Under the pieces are notes generated by a model that was not told where the DNA came from, searched no databases, and saw only the letters and a program-made list of their open reading frames with translations. 64,000 nucleotides of DNA. Origin: Halichondria panicea. Lineage: Eukaryota > Porifera > Demospongiae > Suberitida > Halichondriidae. Where the stretch lies: the NCBI RefSeq assembly GCF_963675165.1, contig NC_087386.1, positions 4,346,169-4,410,168 of the forward strand, in the 5' to 3' direction. Position numbers and translations under genes: made by a program. How positions within the stretch are numbered: the first letter of the stretch is position 1; each line of letters opens with the position of its first letter. Shown piece after piece: positions 37,238-49,200 of this stretch.

Positions 37238-40200
37238 ATGAGCGCATGCGTAATAATCCAGTTTCTATACAGTATTCTTTTTGGTATTGTTTTGCATGGT
37301 ATGTTCCCATTCCTATATATAATTATAATTATTATAGCAACTCAATTTTACATGTGTCATAATTATTTAGTGCATGCATGCATGTATCATTGTCCATTGT
37401 ACCACCCTCTTTCTCTAGGTTTTGTTCAGACCATTAACTGTACTGCACTCCCGATGGAGCAATATTTGTGTAAACTCTTCTCTGATCACAAGGAGAAAAG
37501 AACATGCTTTCGGACAGAGTTGAGAAAGTATCGTAACAGCAACAAACGTTGTTTAACAGATATAACCTGGACAACCGGTTTGGACAAGACACCACAAATA
37601 TTGGAGGTGGATTTTTTGTTGCTGATTATAGCTGGAGATATCGAAACTAACCCTGGCCCTGTTCTTACAACACTGACACTCTCAACTCTTCATGAAGAAT
37701 TAGTTGAGTTGACTAATCCACGTCTTTTTGGTGAACACTTGGGCATTCCTCAGTTGGTATTGGACAAACTTCATCCAAATGGTATGTGCTATGCATGCAC
37801 GCATTAAGTATTAGCAAGGGCGTATGAGAGAAGAGGGCATGCAACTCACTATTAGTCCAACGTGCGAGTAAAAACTTTATTCGATCTATTTATAGCTATC
37901 TGCTACATGTACTTTACACAAAATCAGACACACCTACAATCTATTTTTAGATATTACTGTACTTTTCCAGTAAATTCCACCGCCCACTTACAGTTTTTGC
38001 TCGCAAGCTGTTGCATGCCCTCTTCTCTCATACGCCCTTGGTATTAGTTAATGCACTGTTGCGAGTGCTCTCTATATACATGTAATTATGCCTCGGTGCG
38101 CATGCGCAAGCGAGGTATACAGTAGTGTGTTTGTGTGTGTGAGTGTGTGTGTGTGTGTGTAGGCTGCTACAGCTGCTCAAGGATCAATTAAGTGCAAGTA
38201 AGAGTTTCTATAGGCTTCTAGTCATGTTTACTTGGATTTTAATTCGTGGATTTGCAAAATAATGCTTCGTTCTCGAGTTATGCCTACCGTAAGACCTCGA
38301 TTTAAAGCGACACTTTTTACTAATTACGAAGCCAGAGGTCGCTTCTTTTGGAGGTTGAAAAATTATATTGAAGTCCTGGTGTCGCATATTTAGAGGGTCA
38401 CATCTAATTGGAGGTAACTTTACAGAGTCTACTTGCCTCGATTTTAGGCCGCTTAGAAACACTGATTTTCCAGTGGGCTACAATCGAGGCTAGGGAGTGG
38501 CTACATTTAGAACGTGACATTAAAAAATAATTGTCAACGCAGCTGTCGCTACTTTTAGAGGTCAGAAAATTGCTGAAGCTCCTGGGTGTCGCATATTTGG
38601 AGGTTCGCCTTAAATCGAGGTCTTACGGTAGTTTTGCTTACTTGGAATGCCATTGCAGCCTTTCAGAAGAGTGCGTAGCGTAACTTGTCCATAGAGTGTT
38701 GCTACTCTACTTAGTAGTTATGCCTCGAGGCGTAGCCGCACGAGGGATACGGTAAAGCTGACTGTGTGTGTGTGTTTGTGTGTCTGTTCCAGCTGTAACT
38801 GCTCAACGGTTGCAATGCGACGAAAGCTAACAGCTTCTATAGGCTTCTAGCCACATTCTCTTGGATTTTGATTCGTAGATTAGCAAACTAAAGCTTCTTT
38901 CTCGAGTTATGGCTAGTTTGACTCACATCGAAGGCTGTTGCAGTCTCTTCAGAATCTTTTATATCATTATCTATTTGCACAAACTTTCTTTAACATATGA
39001 GTTAGCCTTGCACTAAAGCGCTAGCTTTTTGTTAGCTACAATAAGACTCAGAAAGTATCTGTTAAAACAGCTAGCTAGCTAGCAGTAGCGAGCAGTAGCC
39101 ATTTGTGAAATTGATCTCTTTGGACACACCCTTTAATTATTCCTGTGGATGTAATGCGCATGCGCGCTCATTCCCCATGTGTGAGAAATAATATCCAAGA
39201 TCCAGATCATCCTCCTGGCAGAATCATTTTTTTCTTGAGGAGGTGGCCGCATTTCCAGGAAATAACCGTGATTCTTAATGAATCATTATGCTCTCTGAAA
39301 TAACCGTGATTCTTAATGAATCATTATGCTCTCTATTTGCCAAAATGTCATATCTGGCCATATTAAAAACTTTGTTTGGGGGCAGCCAGCACTAACCAGT
39401 ATACAGAATAGCGAGTGGCCGCATTTCAGGGTGAGTTTTGTGTAGTAAACATCTAGCTACTAGTATTCCGTGCCAAACCAAATGGCCGGTATATCGAGGT
39501 GGCCGTACTTCAGAGAAAGCCGGAATAGTGATAGTCTATACTGTCAAAAGTACAACTACTCACACGTTACAGTGTGGATTATAAGAAATCTGACAGGAAC
39601 TGACTTATGTCAGACCATATATCCAAAATGCTCTGTCATTGTAGTTTCTTGTTCTGCCATGACTGTCGCAAGGCCCGACTAATGAGGAAAGTCTAGGGTC
39701 TGATGCCCTGAGACATGGATCTACCATGCATTATTATTTATAGCTCATTGACGTTCATTCTGATAAAATATGATATAAATAATTATGACAGTCTAATTAT
39801 TAATATACACAAGTCAAAGTTTAGTCATTGAACCATCCTATAAAGTATTCAGCCAGTGAAATGGTTGACTCATCTTCATCAGGACTGGTTGTAGATGTGC
39901 TTGTTTTGCTCAGATTCACAACACAGTCATGGTAGTGTTTGGTGATCTTTCTCCAGTTCAATGGACTTGCTACATTAAACTTGTCTCTTAGGCTGTTTGA
40001 CAGCTAAATGCTGAGAAGAGTGACGGTTAGAGGGCATAGCTATAGCTACTTTGCACTGTAATTAGAATGATTCTGTTGCCATCCGAACCCACTGACCCAT
40101 GGACATTTGCGATCGATTGGTATATTATAGGCAACGACTGATCTGTATCAATAACAAAAAAACAGGCATCCTCCCATCATGTCTATAATTAATACTTCTC

Positions 40201-43200
40201 TCCTAATTTCATGCAGACGTCATCAAACAGAAAAATACCCTGCTTCAGTACATTGCTAATAACCATGAACTGTACGAATTTGATTGGGAGAAAATCGCTG
40301 ATGCTCTTGATAAAATGTCATTGAGAGACCTGGCCACGGAGCTGAGGTCTAAATATTGTCAACATGGTAATGATTTTGTTATGGTTATGTGGTGCTAAAG
40401 TTATTACATGATAGATTTCCAAATTATGTATGTCATTGTAGATCATTCATCTTCAAGTGATGAGTATCTTTCAGCAGAAGAGCCCCCTTCAAGTGATGAG
40501 CATCATTCAGCAGAAGAGCCCCCACCGGTGCAATTATGTGAGTTTCTAATACGTATAGTAATCATTTGTGATATGTACTACCGCCCACCCCCACTTTTGA
40601 AAGAAAGTTTCTGCATTGGCTAATTTGCCTTGAGAATATGCCCACCAGGAAGTGATGCATTTATTTTGTCAGTGAGCAGTTGTCAAGAAAAGGTTTAGTT
40701 TATTAGTTATAGCTCAGACAATTTTCTTGTGTAGTCGACAAAATCTAGCTCTTCGTGGTCATTGTGACAGTGGTACAGATGTAGAAGGTGCACAGTCGGC
40801 AAGCACAAACCATGGCAACTTTAGGGCCTTGCTAAACTTCAGACAGGCACAGACTCCATAGTATCATAATAATAATTAGTGTCAGGCTTTGTAGAACAAT
40901 TATACATGCCTGTATAATAGCTCTCTCCCCATCCGGCACAGTAATCCGTAGTGCATGGATGCGTGGGGAGCACAACCTGCATTACTATTTTATTATTGTG
41001 ATCATAAACTTGTTTATAGATGCATGAACTCTATTACCAACTGTACAGCCCCGACACCATCATCTCAAGTACAAACTCCAGTAATTCCAGACCCTGTTCC
41101 TTCTCAGCAGCTGACCAAGGATTCAATAGCAGCTACGAGCGCTTCAATGTCAGACTCTGCAACACTGGATATTTCCACACTGAGTACATCACTGTTTTTT
41201 GCAATGATTATAATTTTATTGGTTTTATGATTAAGGGGCTTATAATAATCAGCTATGAACCACCTCAATGCTAATTATTATACTGAAAAATGCATGGTTT
41301 TATTTCCTATCTTAAAGGTTTGTTGAATGGCTTTCGGATGTTTTAAGAGAGCCATTTTTAATTGATCAGACTTTATGTAGTTTACGAATTAGGCTGCGGT
41401 GTATCATCATGAAGCTGTATGTATATACTTTTCAATTATATATGCAGCTGATCTGCCAAGAGTAGGATTTCAAGAACGGTTTCTAGTGCCAGACTCTGTT
41501 CCATCTCAGCAGCCTACCGAGGATGCACTAGTGCCAACTAGGACTTCATTATCAGTAGCACTGGGTCCTCCTGGACCCTCACCAAGTATACCAACACTAG
41601 TAAATGAAAAAGGTGACTGTAATACATTATATCGGCTTGAGAATAATTATACAGTTTCAATACATTGTACTGTAGAGGAGGTACGACAATGTAATTGAGT
41701 GTTCAATAAGTATTCTGTGCCTGCATTCAGGATAGGATCACTGCCAACATCTGAGCCTTGGTTGTTACAACAAATCTAATCTCTACTTGTAAAACTCTAG
41801 CTATACTAGCCAGCAACAAATTTACAGAGTTTTATGCTCTATAAACTTGTCTCTTTATGGCGCTTACTTGCCACCAGTTGAACGTCGTCATTGGAATGCA
41901 TTTTTAACGACTTCTTTCTTCTCTGCTATTTCTTGCCTTCAATAGCAGCCACGTGAGCTTAACCGTGTGTCGTACCTCCTCTGATTGTACTGTTATAATA
42001 TATAATTATACATACTTAGATGAATTCGAATGTATACATGCATGCAGGTCAGAATATTCACTGCAATAATATAATTATTATTCTTGTAAATAATATTAAC
42101 AATAATCTAATAATACTAAATATGGCCTTCAGTTGATTATATATACTCAATTGTGTTACTAATAATTATTACCCGAAATGAAATGTTTTATCAATTCGGC
42201 AAATCTATATAGGTGAGGTTTGCCAATTATAAAGCGCACCTGGTAATGCACACACGCATGCCGTAGTTCCCACGTACCCAATTTGCGCAGTTGCAGGTGT
42301 GACACTGACAGAGGAGCTCTAGCTGTGTGAGAGGCTAGGGATATATAGATGGAGTATAGTATAGGATAATCATTGATCTGCAAAAAAGACATTCAGAAAC
42401 ACTGAGGATCGTTTACTCTTTTTCATTCGCCTAATTGGATTTTGTTCCCGTTGGAATTATAAGTACTTCCCAACATTTTTGGTAGCTCTTGTGCTCTTCC
42501 ATTCTCCTCCACAGCATAGAGTGCTTGCTATGCTCAACAGTGTATAGGCGTACTTCATTCTTGGCGCAGATTTCTTTAACAAGTATTTTTAACAGTTATA
42601 TAATAATTATACTTTTGAGCTCTGTCGACTTTTGGAATTATCTCTCCTATAATAATATGGAAGATTCTTAATGACTGAGGGCACTAAATCTCTCCTATTA
42701 TTAATATGGGAGATTCTTAATGACTGGGGGCACTACTATATACTCTCTTATAATTATTACTTTAGGAGAGGTTTAGTGCCAAGCATTAAATGTTTCTTAT
42801 ATGGTATATAGGAGAGCTTTAATGCCAATGGACATTAAAGCTCTCATATATACCTAGGGAAATTGTTTAATACATGCAACTGCATGCGAACCATATAATT
42901 ATATGGTTATATATATCCATGCATGCATGCACGCATGCATGCATCGACTGTACAGAATTGTGCATGCACACATGCATCCAATCTCTCTGCATGCACACCA
43001 TATAATTATGCATACCCTTCTTTATGTGCATTGAAACCCAATTGAACGCATTCGCACCTATGATGCGCATTGCGTGCCGAATGTGTACGCAACCTATATA
43101 GTTATACTTTTCTGTGCAGGTATTCTAATGCTAATGAAAAGACACAATGTCACTGATAAGCAACTCAACACTGAAATAAAGGAAGCTGATTTCCCCCACT

Positions 43201-46200
43201 TGGCTGAATATTTTGATGGGATTGAGCTCTATATTTGCAAGATGGGTTTGACTCCTTCTGAACAAGGCGATGTGAAACTGAAGGGAAATCACAACATTCA
43301 AGCTGCAATGATTATGTGCTTGTCTTACTGGCGAGGACACAATCCTTCGAAAGCGACATACAAATCTCTGTTGAGCATCTTAGTGAGTCTTGATAAAGGA
43401 TTGATAGCTGATCATGTGTGTCAGTACGTGGCTGGGAAAAATGGTGAGTATTATACTAACGAGTTATTTTTATACGTATAGCAACTGTTTATGTGAGCCT
43501 CATCCACAATCACAGATTATTAATGTGGTGATTGTTATTATAACTGATATTCGAATAGAGCATAACATATACACGTATATATATGCATGCCTGTATATTA
43601 ACATATACACGTATATATTATATGCATGCCTGTATATTAACACATACTCAATGCTGTACCAATCATCACCAGTGCATCCATGTAATCTATACATAATTTT
43701 ATGCAGTCCCTAAACAAAAAAATCTATCTCTTACAACAGCTGAAAGGCCAAATCTGTGCCAATCATCGGATTTTAATATGAAGCGAACGTATGTGCGTTT
43801 TGCTTGTGGCTGTGATCACTGCTCTTTACTGGATCGTGTACTAGGGAAAAAATGCCCTAATCAAGAACAGTATCCATTTCCTAAAATTGGTTTTAGTCAA
43901 GAGTTGTCTGACGATGTGATCTGTGATTTAAACAGATTTAAAGAATCTCTACTGAACCAATCAAGAAGAATTCATGGTATGTTTCTTGAATTAATGACCC
44001 ACACATTCGAAACTCTAAAGAAGAGGAAAGTGGATATTGAAAATGTGAAGTATTATCTGAGATCACTATTTCCCCTTGATTGGCGTTTTCTGGCTATACT
44101 CTCTCAGGAAGAAGTAAATCTATCTGGTGATTTCAACTCTGTGCAAGATTTCTATAAACTTAGTTATTTTTTGCAAGAAAGATACTGTACTTGGTACAAC
44201 TATGATTTGATAGCACGGCTGCGGAAAAAATTTCTTTTTCGGAAGAAAGATTCGAAATTAGAGAATTATGAGAGTTCGTTTAAAGATATTGTCTATCGTA
44301 GATGTTTTCTTTATTTAGACAACGGTGGTAAAGCCCCCAAATATCAGACCGAAGTTGTTTGTAAGATTGATATTGATTATAAAGAATTGTCACAGCCACT
44401 AATTGAACACTTAACGAGTGTGTTTGCCAACGCTATTGGTTTGGGTAAGTATCATTTGGTTTTCAAAAAAGTTATAGAAGGTTGTACTGAACTAGTGTTT
44501 CGAGCACCTCAATACATCATGAAGCTAAAGAAATTATCACCGTATCAGGTGCGTAGCTTAAGAGAACATAACATTATTGCAGTCAGAATCGGTGATCGGT
44601 ACCTCTTTAGACATGATCATGGCTTACTCAGCGCTTGTGAAAAAAACTTGGAACTTTTAGACAAGGTTAAAGTTGATGTATCTCCTTGCACACTGTGGAC
44701 GGGTTTGCATAATGGTCAACCATGCACTGTTTTAAAGTATGAGGCAGAAGAAACCAAATCAAGCTACACTGAGTACGCTCACTACATTCTGGAAAACAAA
44801 CACGAGCATGTAGTGAAAGCCGATTGCATACATTTGGATGACGAGCTTTCACATAATCCAATAATTGTACTTAGACAAGTACATTTGAAGACAATCAATG
44901 ATTATCTTTCTTCATCTCGTAGTGCCTTGTCTGAAATGGAACAGCTTTCATTTTTATTGGACATTGCTAAGGGCTTTGCTAGTCTACAGAATGATACTTC
45001 TGCCTATTTCAGAGGAACTGAAAACTCAGTTTTTATACACGTTGAAGAAAGTATTGGCAACTTAATTGCACAGTTTTTCCCTGTGTATAAGCAATCATAC
45101 TTTCCACGTGCTCAGGAGTACGCAGCCGCAGTATCTTCAGCAGATTTGATATGGCTTAGAAGAACAACAATTTTGTTAGATCGTGAAAGCAATGATGAAA
45201 AATCGGAGCTACCCGAGAGTCATGTACTATACAACATTTTTAAGCACAAGTGGTTGTCAGATGATGAGCGTTTACGCCCTCGTGATGTATCACAAGTTGC
45301 TAAAGAGGTTGAATACATTCGAGGTAAGTCAGCAATATTCAAGAATATTGTTCACATAATTATAACTATGTAATTTTCTCACCGTAGATTTGGAGAAGAC
45401 AAGGCTAGAAATGATTGATGTAGTAAGCAACTCGGAGTTTCAGGAAGTATCACATTTGAATATGATCCTTATCGGGCACACTGGAGTCGGAAAGACCTCA
45501 ATTCGAAAGCATCTACAAAACCTTTTATTTGCCAAGAATGAAACCAGTACTATCCTATTTGAACATGAGCTTCTATTTGTACAAACAGTTGAATTGTTGC
45601 CTGATACCAATATCCCAGTTTTCCAACGTAATGATGCAGTATACAGTAGTGAGAAGGATAAGGTGTTTCTTACTTTGTGGGACACAGGGGGCCAGCCAAT
45701 GTTTCAGGATCTTCTTCCTTGCTTCGCCAAATTCAGATCCATTTATGGCGTTGTGTTTCGTATCAGTGATTTTTCGAATGATTCTAACGCTGTTACAAGA
45801 CCCACTTGTCCACTTGAGAGCGAAAGTGAATCTCCATATACTTGCAAAGAGTACATTAAACGATGCCTTGCTTTTTTGGAGTTCTTTGCATTTGATATGA
45901 ATCAAAGGTTTATTCAACTACCTAATGAAGTAAAAAATGCATTGTTTCAAAATGCTGCTGATGATATAAGCCTTTTTCCTAAAGTCGCTTTAATTGGAAC
46001 TTTTAAGGACAAGATGATGCAAGACAATGCCGTAAGGGGAAAGTACAATGATTTCAAGAAAAATTTGCTTCCAACTAATTTTGTTGAAAGGTCCCTTTGC
46101 CCAAGCTATGATGACACTGTGTTTGAAGTAGACAACACTAAATCAGGAGATTCCTGTGAAGACCCTGGTATTAAAGATTTACGTGAGAAGATAATCACGG

Positions 46201-49200
46201 AAACGCAGCTCACAAAGACAAAGATACCTTTGAAATGGATTGCATACAAACTTGACTTGGAAAATGAATCACGATTACAACGGCCCTGCACAGGCATTGT
46301 AACCCTTAGTAAAGCTAACGAAATAGCAAAGAAGCAGCAAATCAGCTCAAGTGCAGCTCTAAGTTATTTTCATGAACTAGGAATATTTCTGTGGTACCGT
46401 GAGACAGAATCTCTAAACAGTTATGTAATTGTGGAATCAAGACATCTGCTATCTATTCTAGGCACTCTTCTTAACCCAAAAACATTCATTAGTTTCCCTG
46501 GTGAATGGAAAAACCTTCAGGAACATGGCATACTGAATAATGATGTCGGTTTTACGCTTCTTGACGAGACTATGAGCAGGACAGGGGTTGATCGTGAATG
46601 GATTTTTAGCTTTTTTAGAGAGCACCACCTAATAATGAACTTGTCAGCTGAAGGCTACTTCATTCCCTCTCTACTTCAAGTACTCCCGATTTGTTCAAAT
46701 CCTTTCCACATTTGTGATGCAATTTGTTCTATGTGCACCCTCCTCCCACAAGCCAAAGATATGGAAGTAGCCCCATTATTTTTAGTGCCTAAGTGTAAGT
46801 GCATACCACCTGGCTTTTTCCCTCGACTAATGACAATGCTTGCTGGAATTCAAGACGGCGAGATAATTTGGAAGATATCAGTAAGCACGATGAGCTGCAA
46901 AAACGTGGTTTCATTTATTGTAGGTGGTAACGCTTTCCTTGTTTTCACTGAATTCATTGATTGTATTCGAATCTACTGTACTTCTGTTCCTAGTGCAAGC
47001 ATTTCCCAATTGCTGTGTAGAGGCATCTTGCGTCAAATAAGAGCCCAAATTGAGCGGCTCTTTTTGGAGAGTAGTAGCCTTCCAATCATAATTACATTCG
47101 CTTGTCCTTGCTCCAAGTCCCTTCATTTTTTACCTTCTGTGCCGGCTAACTCGCATGATAAAGTGATTTGTACTGAGCACCCAGGATATGTTTTTGAACC
47201 TTGTGAAAGTCATCTGAAGTGGCTACAAAAGAAAATTACTTTAGATAGAGGTAAGTTTAAAATGTATACATGCAACAGAAATGTACATTCCTCATGTGCA
47301 GATGCTGAAGAACAGCTCAAAATTGCCCTGAAAGAAGGAGGAGTGGACGTACTTGTATCAACAGTGCTGTTTGTGGGATCTAACTTTTCTGATCAGATTG
47401 TAATGGATGACAGAGAATCTGGTTCGACAAGTATTTCCAGGTTTTTCATTCTAGAAGACAACAACTTAAAATTATTACAATCTGAAGTTGTAGAAGCATT
47501 TTTAGCGAGTAACGCAGCCGAGTTAAAGCAAAAGTTTCCGAGTGATCAAGATAGTTCATGTGATCCACCCAAGACTGAAGCCTCTGCAAATTATATATCA
47601 GAATCGAAAGATTACTTGCCCAAGGCTGAAACGTCTGCAAATGATTTATCAGAATCAAAAAATTTTTTGCCCAAGGCTGAAACGTCTGCAAAGGATTTAT
47701 CAGAATTGAAAGATTTCTTACCGCACAAACAACACAGTCCACTTAAGTCTTATGCTGTCAATGAACCACAGCAAATTGCTGGAGATGATGAACATCATAT
47801 TACAAAACGCGAGGAACATAGCTCACCTGCATCTACATCTATGCATATCCCAACTGATCAGCTAACACGTAATAAAAGTCGCATAGTCACATTAATGCAA
47901 GGTGCTAGTGATGAGCTACAAAGTCTCCATTTAATGAATGCAATAGAGTGTAAGCATTCTCTTATCTTAACAATTTTACCATTGCTTACTCCGCAACTAT
48001 CATCTTTCGGTATTCTTGATGTTCAGTTCACAGCGGAGATGCTTGAAAAATTTCCAGATATTTCTGAAAAATGGATAGTAATAGCTCCATCATTGATGAA
48101 GACTTCAAAAAATGAAATTGATCTCGTAGAAAACAGTCCACATAGGCATAAATTTGCTTTAAATTTTTCTGGTGGAGTTCTTTTTTCTAGTCATGAAGAA
48201 GTTTTAAAAGTTTTGAGGACTTTGCGTAGCATGAACAAAGAACAGATTCCCTATTCTTGGTTTTATCTCTGGAGTTTTGTTAAAAACACACTTCAACTAA
48301 ACAATTCAAAAATAATTACTCTTGATACTGTTATTCGCATTTCAGACACTTGTGGTATCAAGTCTGGTCAGCAGCTACAGGACGCTCTTGCATATCTACA
48401 TAAATGTGGTCTGCTAATCTACTTTAAAGATATTCTCCCCAATGTTATTTTTGAAGATGTCTCCTTGCTCATGTCTTTAATGATTTCTTTGCTCAAAAAC
48501 ATTAAATATACTGGGCTACTTACAGATACTGACTTTCATGCTGTTCAAAATGTTTATGATAGTATTTTTACATATGATAATGTTATAAAGCTACTCAAAG
48601 GGTTATGCTTACTCTCTCAAATTAGCTCGCATCAGTTCTTAATGCCATGTGTTCTCACAACGTCTCTAAGCCCTCAAGATTTGAGTATCTATTGCAAAGA
48701 ACCTTGTCTTGTAGTTCAACACCCAATGGCTACCAACGTTTTTGGATTTTTGATCTGCTTTGTAACGTCTCAAGAAAGCAGCGACTTCTGGCCATGGAAA
48801 ATACTCACAAATCCGAATACGGGAGATCCAGTTTGCATATTTTCAAACTGTGCACAGTTTTCTCTGCCTGGATATGATTGTATGATAACATTGTTTGCAT
48901 CTAACTCATGTGTTAGGATTTATACTGAGTACAAGAATTATCAACCACCTTTGTTTCTGATCAAGACAGCTGTGATTCGTGGGATTGAAAAAGCATGCAA
49001 ATGTTATCAATTGGAATCGCTGGCTTGTGATGTTGGGTTTAATTGCATTTGTGGTTCCACAGACATTGAGCATAATATGATTTGGCTTGAACAAAGTTTG
49101 ATATGTTCTTTCAACTCGGAGCAGACTTTTAAGCTGTCACAATCACAGCAACGCTGGTTTGATGAAGGTATGTAAGTATACATTACACCATGCAAGTGTA

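Follow-up and report, generated by a model that had tools for sequence, protein, structure and literature searches.

Does the Roco-type gene in this stretch of the Halichondria panicea genome carry a 2A/StopGo element ahead of its Death-type domain, and could that element separate the receptor from an N-terminal leader? We analyzed the whole 64-kb stretch of DNA (the window) and searched the genome for related sites. All features below lie on the plus strand. The sequence GATATCGAAACTAACCCTGGCCC at 37637–37659 encodes DIETNPG(P) and is the sole match in the window at up to one mismatch, while a mean of 0.01 matches per shuffled window was obtained from 100 shuffles. The complete core DIETNPGP (37637–37660) was annotated from the pattern match, its conservation in paralogues and the splice model; it lies in frame within proposed exon 2 and conforms to (D/G/C/N)(V/I)ExNPGP, the pattern we applied for a 2A/StopGo element. 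The break is predicted between the glycine at 37655–37657 and the proline at 37658–37660. Directly upstream, the hydrophobic lead-in FLLLIIAG (37613–37636) resembles the L-rich class ending in (A/S/C)G described by Li et al. (2026; PMC12846837; this and the other papers below are cited from excerpts). By our own rule, as distinct from the motif scores of that study, its last six residues LLIIAG are L-rich with AG before the D. The original prediction of GDIETNPGP with a hydrophobic lead-in matching the 2A consensus thus holds as described.

The exon model of the gene is based on consensus splice sites, reading frame and paralogues. Proposed exon 1 (37238–37298) comprises an ATG and the hydrophobic leader MSACVIIQFLYSILFGIVLH and ends at a GTATGT donor at 37299. 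Proposed exon 2 (37419–37781), preceded by the acceptor CTTTCTCTAG and followed by a second GTATGT donor at 37782, contains a linker, the 2A and the first half of the Death-type domain, the second half being encoded by proposed exon 3 (40217–40366, acceptor TTTCATGCAG). The donors of exons 1 and 2 are both in phase 1, and the proline following NPG becomes residue 101 of the spliced model, in agreement with the earlier placement of the motif 100 residues into the protein. The first 19 residues of the spliced product have a mean Kyte-Doolittle value of 2.25, and from its sequence the exon 1 leader is plausibly a signal peptide.

Immediately after the core begins the first half of the Death-type domain (37661–37781, VLTTLTLSTLHEELVELTN...). 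With both halves joined over exons 2 and 3, Pfam Death matches at E = 0.0028 and 18.2 bits, which is below the gathering cut-off of 22.6; a Death profile seeded from other loci of this genome (see below) matched 0/9 Roco exons. Further downstream, an open frame at 43035–43481 gives a second weak Death-like match (E = 0.053, below cut-off) and one at 43697–45373 a weak kinase-like match (PF07714, E = 0.00038, below cut-off). The latter lies within the Roco gene and is possibly a degenerate kinase or pseudokinase. A 1269-aa open frame at 45366–49175 then encodes a Roc GTPase domain (Pfam E = 2.0e-9) followed by COR-A (E = 1.2e-17), with two COR-A stretches listed inside it, so that the Roc-then-COR order of a Roco protein is present in a single frame. 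Of the Death-Roc-COR protein first proposed, the Roc and COR-A parts are supported by Pfam, and the Death-type part scores below the cut-off.

We consider it probable that a working 2A splits the leader chain from the Death-Roc-COR receptor and gives the receptor a dual fate, in a design common to at least eight families. In the proposed mechanism, a ribosome translating the spliced mRNA would often fail to join Gly100 to Pro101 and would release an N-terminal chain of ~100 residues made up of the hydrophobic exon 1 leader, the linker and the 2A. Translation would then resume to give a Death-Roc-COR protein that starts with proline and lacks the leader. When skipping fails, the full-length protein would retain the leader, which would direct it to the ER or anchor it to the membrane. 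As skipping would occur often and the leader would be kept upon failure, one mRNA would yield both receptor forms: a soluble cytosolic receptor, accompanied by the leader chain, and a minority of receptor on the membrane or secretory route. The lead-in, and perhaps the translocon as well, would determine the ratio of the products. In vivo, 2A activity is inhibited when some upstream sequences are translocated (de Felipe, 2010; PMC2978324), which might serve to tune this ratio, and the efficiency here may be low for the same reason. Ribosome skipping at the window 2A is likely from the sequence, and from the model we infer the dual localisation of the receptor, the efficiency of skipping and the signal function of the leader.

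The 2A is not confined to this gene. Genome-wide, the DNA pattern D[VIM]ExNPGP gave 116 matches (71 + 45) and a control pattern read backwards gave none; a chance motif was set aside on this difference and on the window shuffles. Sorted by leader, the 116 sites comprise families A (Roco, 9), B (45), C (11), D (19), E (11), F (2), G (2) and H (3), 7 LINE-type sites and 7 others. The eight families A–H hold 102 sites with a phase-1 donor after the core. This donor was found by rule in B (45/45), C (11/11), F (2/2), G (2/2) and 10/11 sites of E, and by eye in the eleventh E site (L009) and in D (19/19). For H (3/3) the rule took the first GT, and a likelier donor further on is also in phase 1. 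The true Roco donor falls after the first Death half; the rule gave phase 1 in 9/9 Roco copies, having taken a different GT in L002–L004. Donor phases were read from genomic sequence, and the leader families represent perhaps eight independent cases, not 102. The 2A noted earlier in one Roco gene is indeed there, but it is no lone oddity: it belongs to one family among at least eight in the genome. The same N-terminal design, with an exon closing in phase 1, would thus front at least eight Death- or CARD-led families.

Some sites share sequence upstream of the 2A. The motif WR(A/V)R(I/T)GL occurs near the N-terminus in families D, H and F, shortly behind a Met and before differing hydrophobic 2A leaders (seen at L137 and L138 on contig C5, L140 on C15, and L010 and L011 on C1, among loci whose upstream sequence was long enough to read). 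The segment VVDLSWTG-FPC-LGWRGSA is common to clusters B and C and is followed by what appears by eye to be a TM-like stretch (L135 and L136 on C14; L017–L020 and L023 on C2). At L077 and L078 (C16), L080 (C17) and L037 (C6), 2A cores are followed by long open frames without an assigned domain.

Outside the Roco family, a Death- or CARD-type exon follows the 2A at 87/93 sites in the seven other families. Using a seeded Death profile, a Death-type exon was found downstream in B (42/45), D (17/19), E (11/11), H (2/3) and at L073, that is, at 73/79 sites when B, D, E, H and L073 are pooled. The distance from NPGP to this exon is mostly 69–173 bases, with a few cases of 303–366 or 1038. A second seeded profile detected a CARD-type exon in C (11/11), F (2/2) and G (2/2), together 15/15, and in none of the other families. 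Both profiles were seeded from some of these same loci. Searched against PDB, the Death profile matched FADD (E 0.0016) and PIDD (E 0.0043). The AF2 model of the E-family Death domain at L036, built with 27 relatives, has a pLDDT of 95.2, and its best Foldseek matches are the Death domains of FADD, RIPK1 and ankyrin (query TM 0.61–0.79, E 0.05 or worse). Pfam gave no CARD match on the CARD-type exons and the CARD call was made by fold: the model (pLDDT 94.5) aligns with the CARDs of Apaf-1, CARD8 and NLRC4 at a TM of about 0.7 and E above 1. The E-values are weak, and it is the consistent family of fold matches that supports the Death and CARD assignments of these models.

The bodies of these genes differ. 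NACHT frames were found further downstream in B (at L021) and F (at L025), and by position in H, and an ankyrin frame in D (at L022). One B-leader site (L034) has a Roc-like GTPase match below cut-off. The GTPase-like frame of family C gave no Pfam match over the cut-off, and no body was identified among the downstream frames of family E. From their order and strand, the downstream frames and the 2A appear to belong to one gene. In family G, the order at L026 is 2A, CARD-type exon, astacin/matrixin-like metalloprotease frame and, at a greater distance, a frame for a dynamin-type GTPase; L026 and L062, both at 4.93–4.95 Mb on contig C7, each show a 2A and then a CARD-type exon. NACHT scoring covered 102 of 265 candidates. 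When the 22 of the 102 scored NACHT that lie on contigs and strands near a 2A were compared with 51 of the 116 sites, 12 lay no more than 5 kb downstream of one, and a limit of 5.5 kb gave 13. None of the listed 2A sites falls in the large NACHT clusters of C7, C13 and C14 (5.4 Mb).

To follow the 2A exon within the Roco family we carried out a whole-exon protein search of the genome (131 Mb, 39 contigs), in which places were found by the exon and not by the motif. Nine places were obtained at E below 1e-11, namely the window, three copies on the same contig at 93% identity and five divergent copies at 46–59%. D(V/I)ETNPGP is kept in 9/9 copies, and core residues differ only in that the window group has I where the divergent group has V. 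The search for the motif in paralogues called for by the original prediction thus found the core in all eight other exon copies, conserved at the protein level. Pooled Nei-Gojobori estimates for the five divergent copies gave pN 0.000 and pS 0.314 for the core; with only seven synonymous sites per pair and non-independent pairs, this constraint is strong in direction but not exact in size. The corresponding values of pN and pS were 0.058 and 0.130 for the lead-in, 0.096 and 0.170 for the linker, and 0.184 and 0.383 for the Death half. An exon 3 equivalent lies close behind the 2A exon in the divergent paralogues, including L027 and L028.

COR-A was found at 60 places in the genome, of which 12 follow a same-strand 2A core at a distance of 3.8–18.0 kb: in the four tandem copies, on C12, on C6, at 1.21 Mb on C10, and on C11 beside L033. 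The other 48/60 have no listed 2A within 20 kb, and most Roco-type loci therefore lack it. At L033 (C11, 4.571 Mb), another Roco-type locus, COR-A lies 3.8 kb beyond the core and a Death-like frame gives E = 0.0046, below cut-off; the different 2A leader of this locus marks a second Roco lineage.

Gaps in the linker provide better evidence of coding than its pN/pS, which alone is 0.56. Among the five divergent copies, gap lengths are multiples of three in 29/29 pairwise cases (pairs not independent), compared with 19/55 immediately upstream of the acceptor and 17/33 after the donor, the latter stretch including the next exon. The linker thus behaves as coding sequence, as it also would if skipping were near-complete and each mRNA gave two separate proteins, one of them a small chain that is secreted or membrane-bound and the other a cytosolic receptor, while full-length protein would be negligible. 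In several families the pre-2A chains are quite different from one another and by eye rich in TM segments, for instance in F (L010, L011) and in the segment shared by B and C, which fits such a two-product gene, as does the activity that Li et al. (2026; PMC12846837) reported for the L-rich class. Linker length, however, varies freely, as is also expected of a mere tether, and the sea-urchin SpNLR2A6 shows about 80% recoding, so that a fused form remains. We find near-complete skipping possible but rather unlikely, and prefer a partial skip that leaves some full-length receptor.

The same gaps bear on where translation starts. If the main mRNA began downstream, at the ATG at 37454 or past the 2A, the leader or even the whole 2A would rarely be translated. 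There is a possible acceptor 11 bases further on and the ATG at 37454 is in frame; moreover, a search for exon 1 in the divergent Roco paralogues gave nothing convincing. A scan of L001 and L003, two of the four tandem copies, showed in L003 an exon 1 equivalent that is in frame, MHELHALIIQFLVFGIVF/G, and whose donor and phase are unchanged; the first residues of exon 1 vary between tandem copies. The linker gaps are in frame throughout the five copies, which speaks against a downstream start, and translation from 37454 would in any case run through the 2A. We regard this explanation as improbable. MALVV as the sole start in the divergent copies is likewise unlikely because the linker before it has in-frame gaps only.

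Families B–E were collected by the core motif, so low core pN there proves little; their conservation was dropped as proof of selection, and the Roco search and two leader searches not based on the core alone were used instead. With the B leader, 47 places were found at E 1.3e-10 or better, 45 with the strict core and two (L124, L125) with N at the first core position (p12), for which Li et al. (2026; PMC12846837) tested an active example. All 47/47 places thus keep a core within the set of that study. With the D leader, 22 places were found at E below 1e-6; the core is kept in 19 and broken in 3, two of the three broken ones contain stops, and L057, one of the 19, has a stop in its leader.

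Our hexapeptide rule (at least 3 of 4 residues LIVMF, then A/S/C, then G) fits 101/102 sites of A–H, 7/7 of the other sites and 4/7 of the LINE-type sites. Hexapeptides of this kind are similar in sequence to motifs 2 and 6 of Li et al. (2026; PMC12846837), who report an active example of motif 6 and pair L-rich hexapeptides that end in (A/S/C)G with a D as the first core residue. As both LLIIAG and 101/102 of the A–H sites fit a class with an active example, skipping would be expected. The lead-ins also differ in hydrophobicity. In Roco copies the best 19-residue Kyte-Doolittle value has a median of 1.25 and reaches 1.6 in 1/9, whereas medians in the other genic families range from 1.63 to 3.06; values of at least 1.6 were found in B (23/45), C (8/8 with enough frame), E (11/11), F (2/2), G (1/2) and H (3/3). 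The Roco lead-in being only weakly hydrophobic, membrane targeting of the window gene would rest on exon 1.

Most families do have hydrophobic leaders, and the motif might be kept merely because it closes a signal or TM segment, with no ribosome skipping. We know of no need of a signal or TM segment for an NPGP core. It is this core that forms the fixed part in the families found by more than the core, and the Roco lead-in is not clearly a membrane segment. Six C-cluster copies (L129–L134, contig C2, 7.77–7.86 Mb) retain a leader like LLVLAFCLLLQCG followed by GDVKPNPGP, with K for E, a type of core not listed as active in the excerpted text of Li et al. (2026; PMC12846837); these copies fit a role of the leader as a membrane or signal segment. 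On balance a signal or TM role without skipping seems very unlikely, and a working 2A remains our preferred explanation.

Seven sites are of LINE type. At L012, L014 and L032 an N-terminal 2A is followed by a PHD finger and an endonuclease, with a reverse transcriptase at L032; a PHD finger was also found at L016. L070 was assigned by its likeness to L032. L015 and L079 were judged by eye alone, and Pfam detected nothing in the piece adjoining the L015 core. Although such elements with an N-terminal 2A exist in this genome (L012, L014, L016, L032), we set aside as highly improbable the idea that the exon is a chance relic of one that landed upstream of the gene, since the LINE-type sites lead into PHD/endonuclease frames with a Death/CARD exon at 0/7 (two sites with only 469 bases to search), the window gene continues into Death and Roc-COR with no PHD/endonuclease-RT frame after its 2A, and protein-level constraint on nine Roco exon copies is not what a decaying relic would show. 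The 2A itself may still have come from a LINE long ago.

Only tentatively would we extend the working 2A to a general rule, in which a phase-1 2A leader exon spread or re-evolved over at least eight Death/CARD-led receptor families and acts as a general switch between membrane-tethered and free forms in the innate immune repertoire, Roco GTPases included. If the sites work, translation recoding would set where many immune-type receptors go, and the purpose of cellular 2A could be tested by setting weaker leaders against stronger ones within a single animal. Among the open-access papers searched we found none on 2A in Roco genes or in sponge receptors. A study by Rao et al. (2025, Cell Rep 44:115822), reportedly on eukaryotic and viral 2A sequences to judge by its title, may already list some of these families. 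Subject to such overlap, the scale and breadth of N-terminal 2A in this genome, with Roco, ankyrin and CARD-led genes, appear unusual and were not found in print. The excerpted text of a paper on sponge NLRs (PMC12909245) makes no mention of 2A. That no description existed holds as far as we found for Roco genes, but a similar architecture has been published for sea-urchin NLRs (Roulston et al., 2016; PMC4981915), and 2A in sea-urchin NLR-type genes is, as first stated, established. A 2024 paper also places 2A in some cellular NLR sequences (PMC11512398).

The closest known system is SpNLR2A, the N-terminal 2A-like signal sequences on NLRs of Strongylocentrotus purpuratus (Roulston et al., 2016; PMC4981915). 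In both systems the 2A is N-terminal and precedes a Death domain (in the window gene, a Death match below the Pfam cut-off) in immune-type genes of a large family, the lead-in is hydrophobic, and only part of the family has the 2A (in the sea urchin about 35%, 85/241). In the sea-urchin model, skipping gives a cytosolic product and failed skipping a product on the secretory route (PMC4981915). The sea-urchin genes, however, are NLRs, with 14 entries carrying a 26-residue 2A at the very N-terminus (PMC4981915), whereas the window gene has a Roc-COR body in place of NACHT, which is present in other 2A families of the same genome; Roco, ankyrin and CARD-led genes also carry the 2A here, the pre-2A chain is longer and the donor of the 2A exon is in phase 1. 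APE-type non-LTR retrotransposons have a 2A with the same core (Odon et al., 2013, cited through PMC12846837 and PMC4981915), and this genome also contains elements in which a 2A precedes PHD, endonuclease and RT frames; the window gene differs from such elements in having Death and Roc-COR, not PHD/endonuclease frames, after the 2A. With viral 2A/StopGo (Li et al., 2026; PMC12846837) the sites share the core D(V/I)ExNPGP and the L-rich upstream class ending in (A/S/C)G before D, but here they stand near the N-terminus of cellular receptor genes and not in a viral polyprotein. The survey of Li et al. (2026; PMC12846837) describes StopGo as only rarely employed by cellular genes, and against this background the sponge genome holds about 100 genic copies tied to Death/CARD-type domains.
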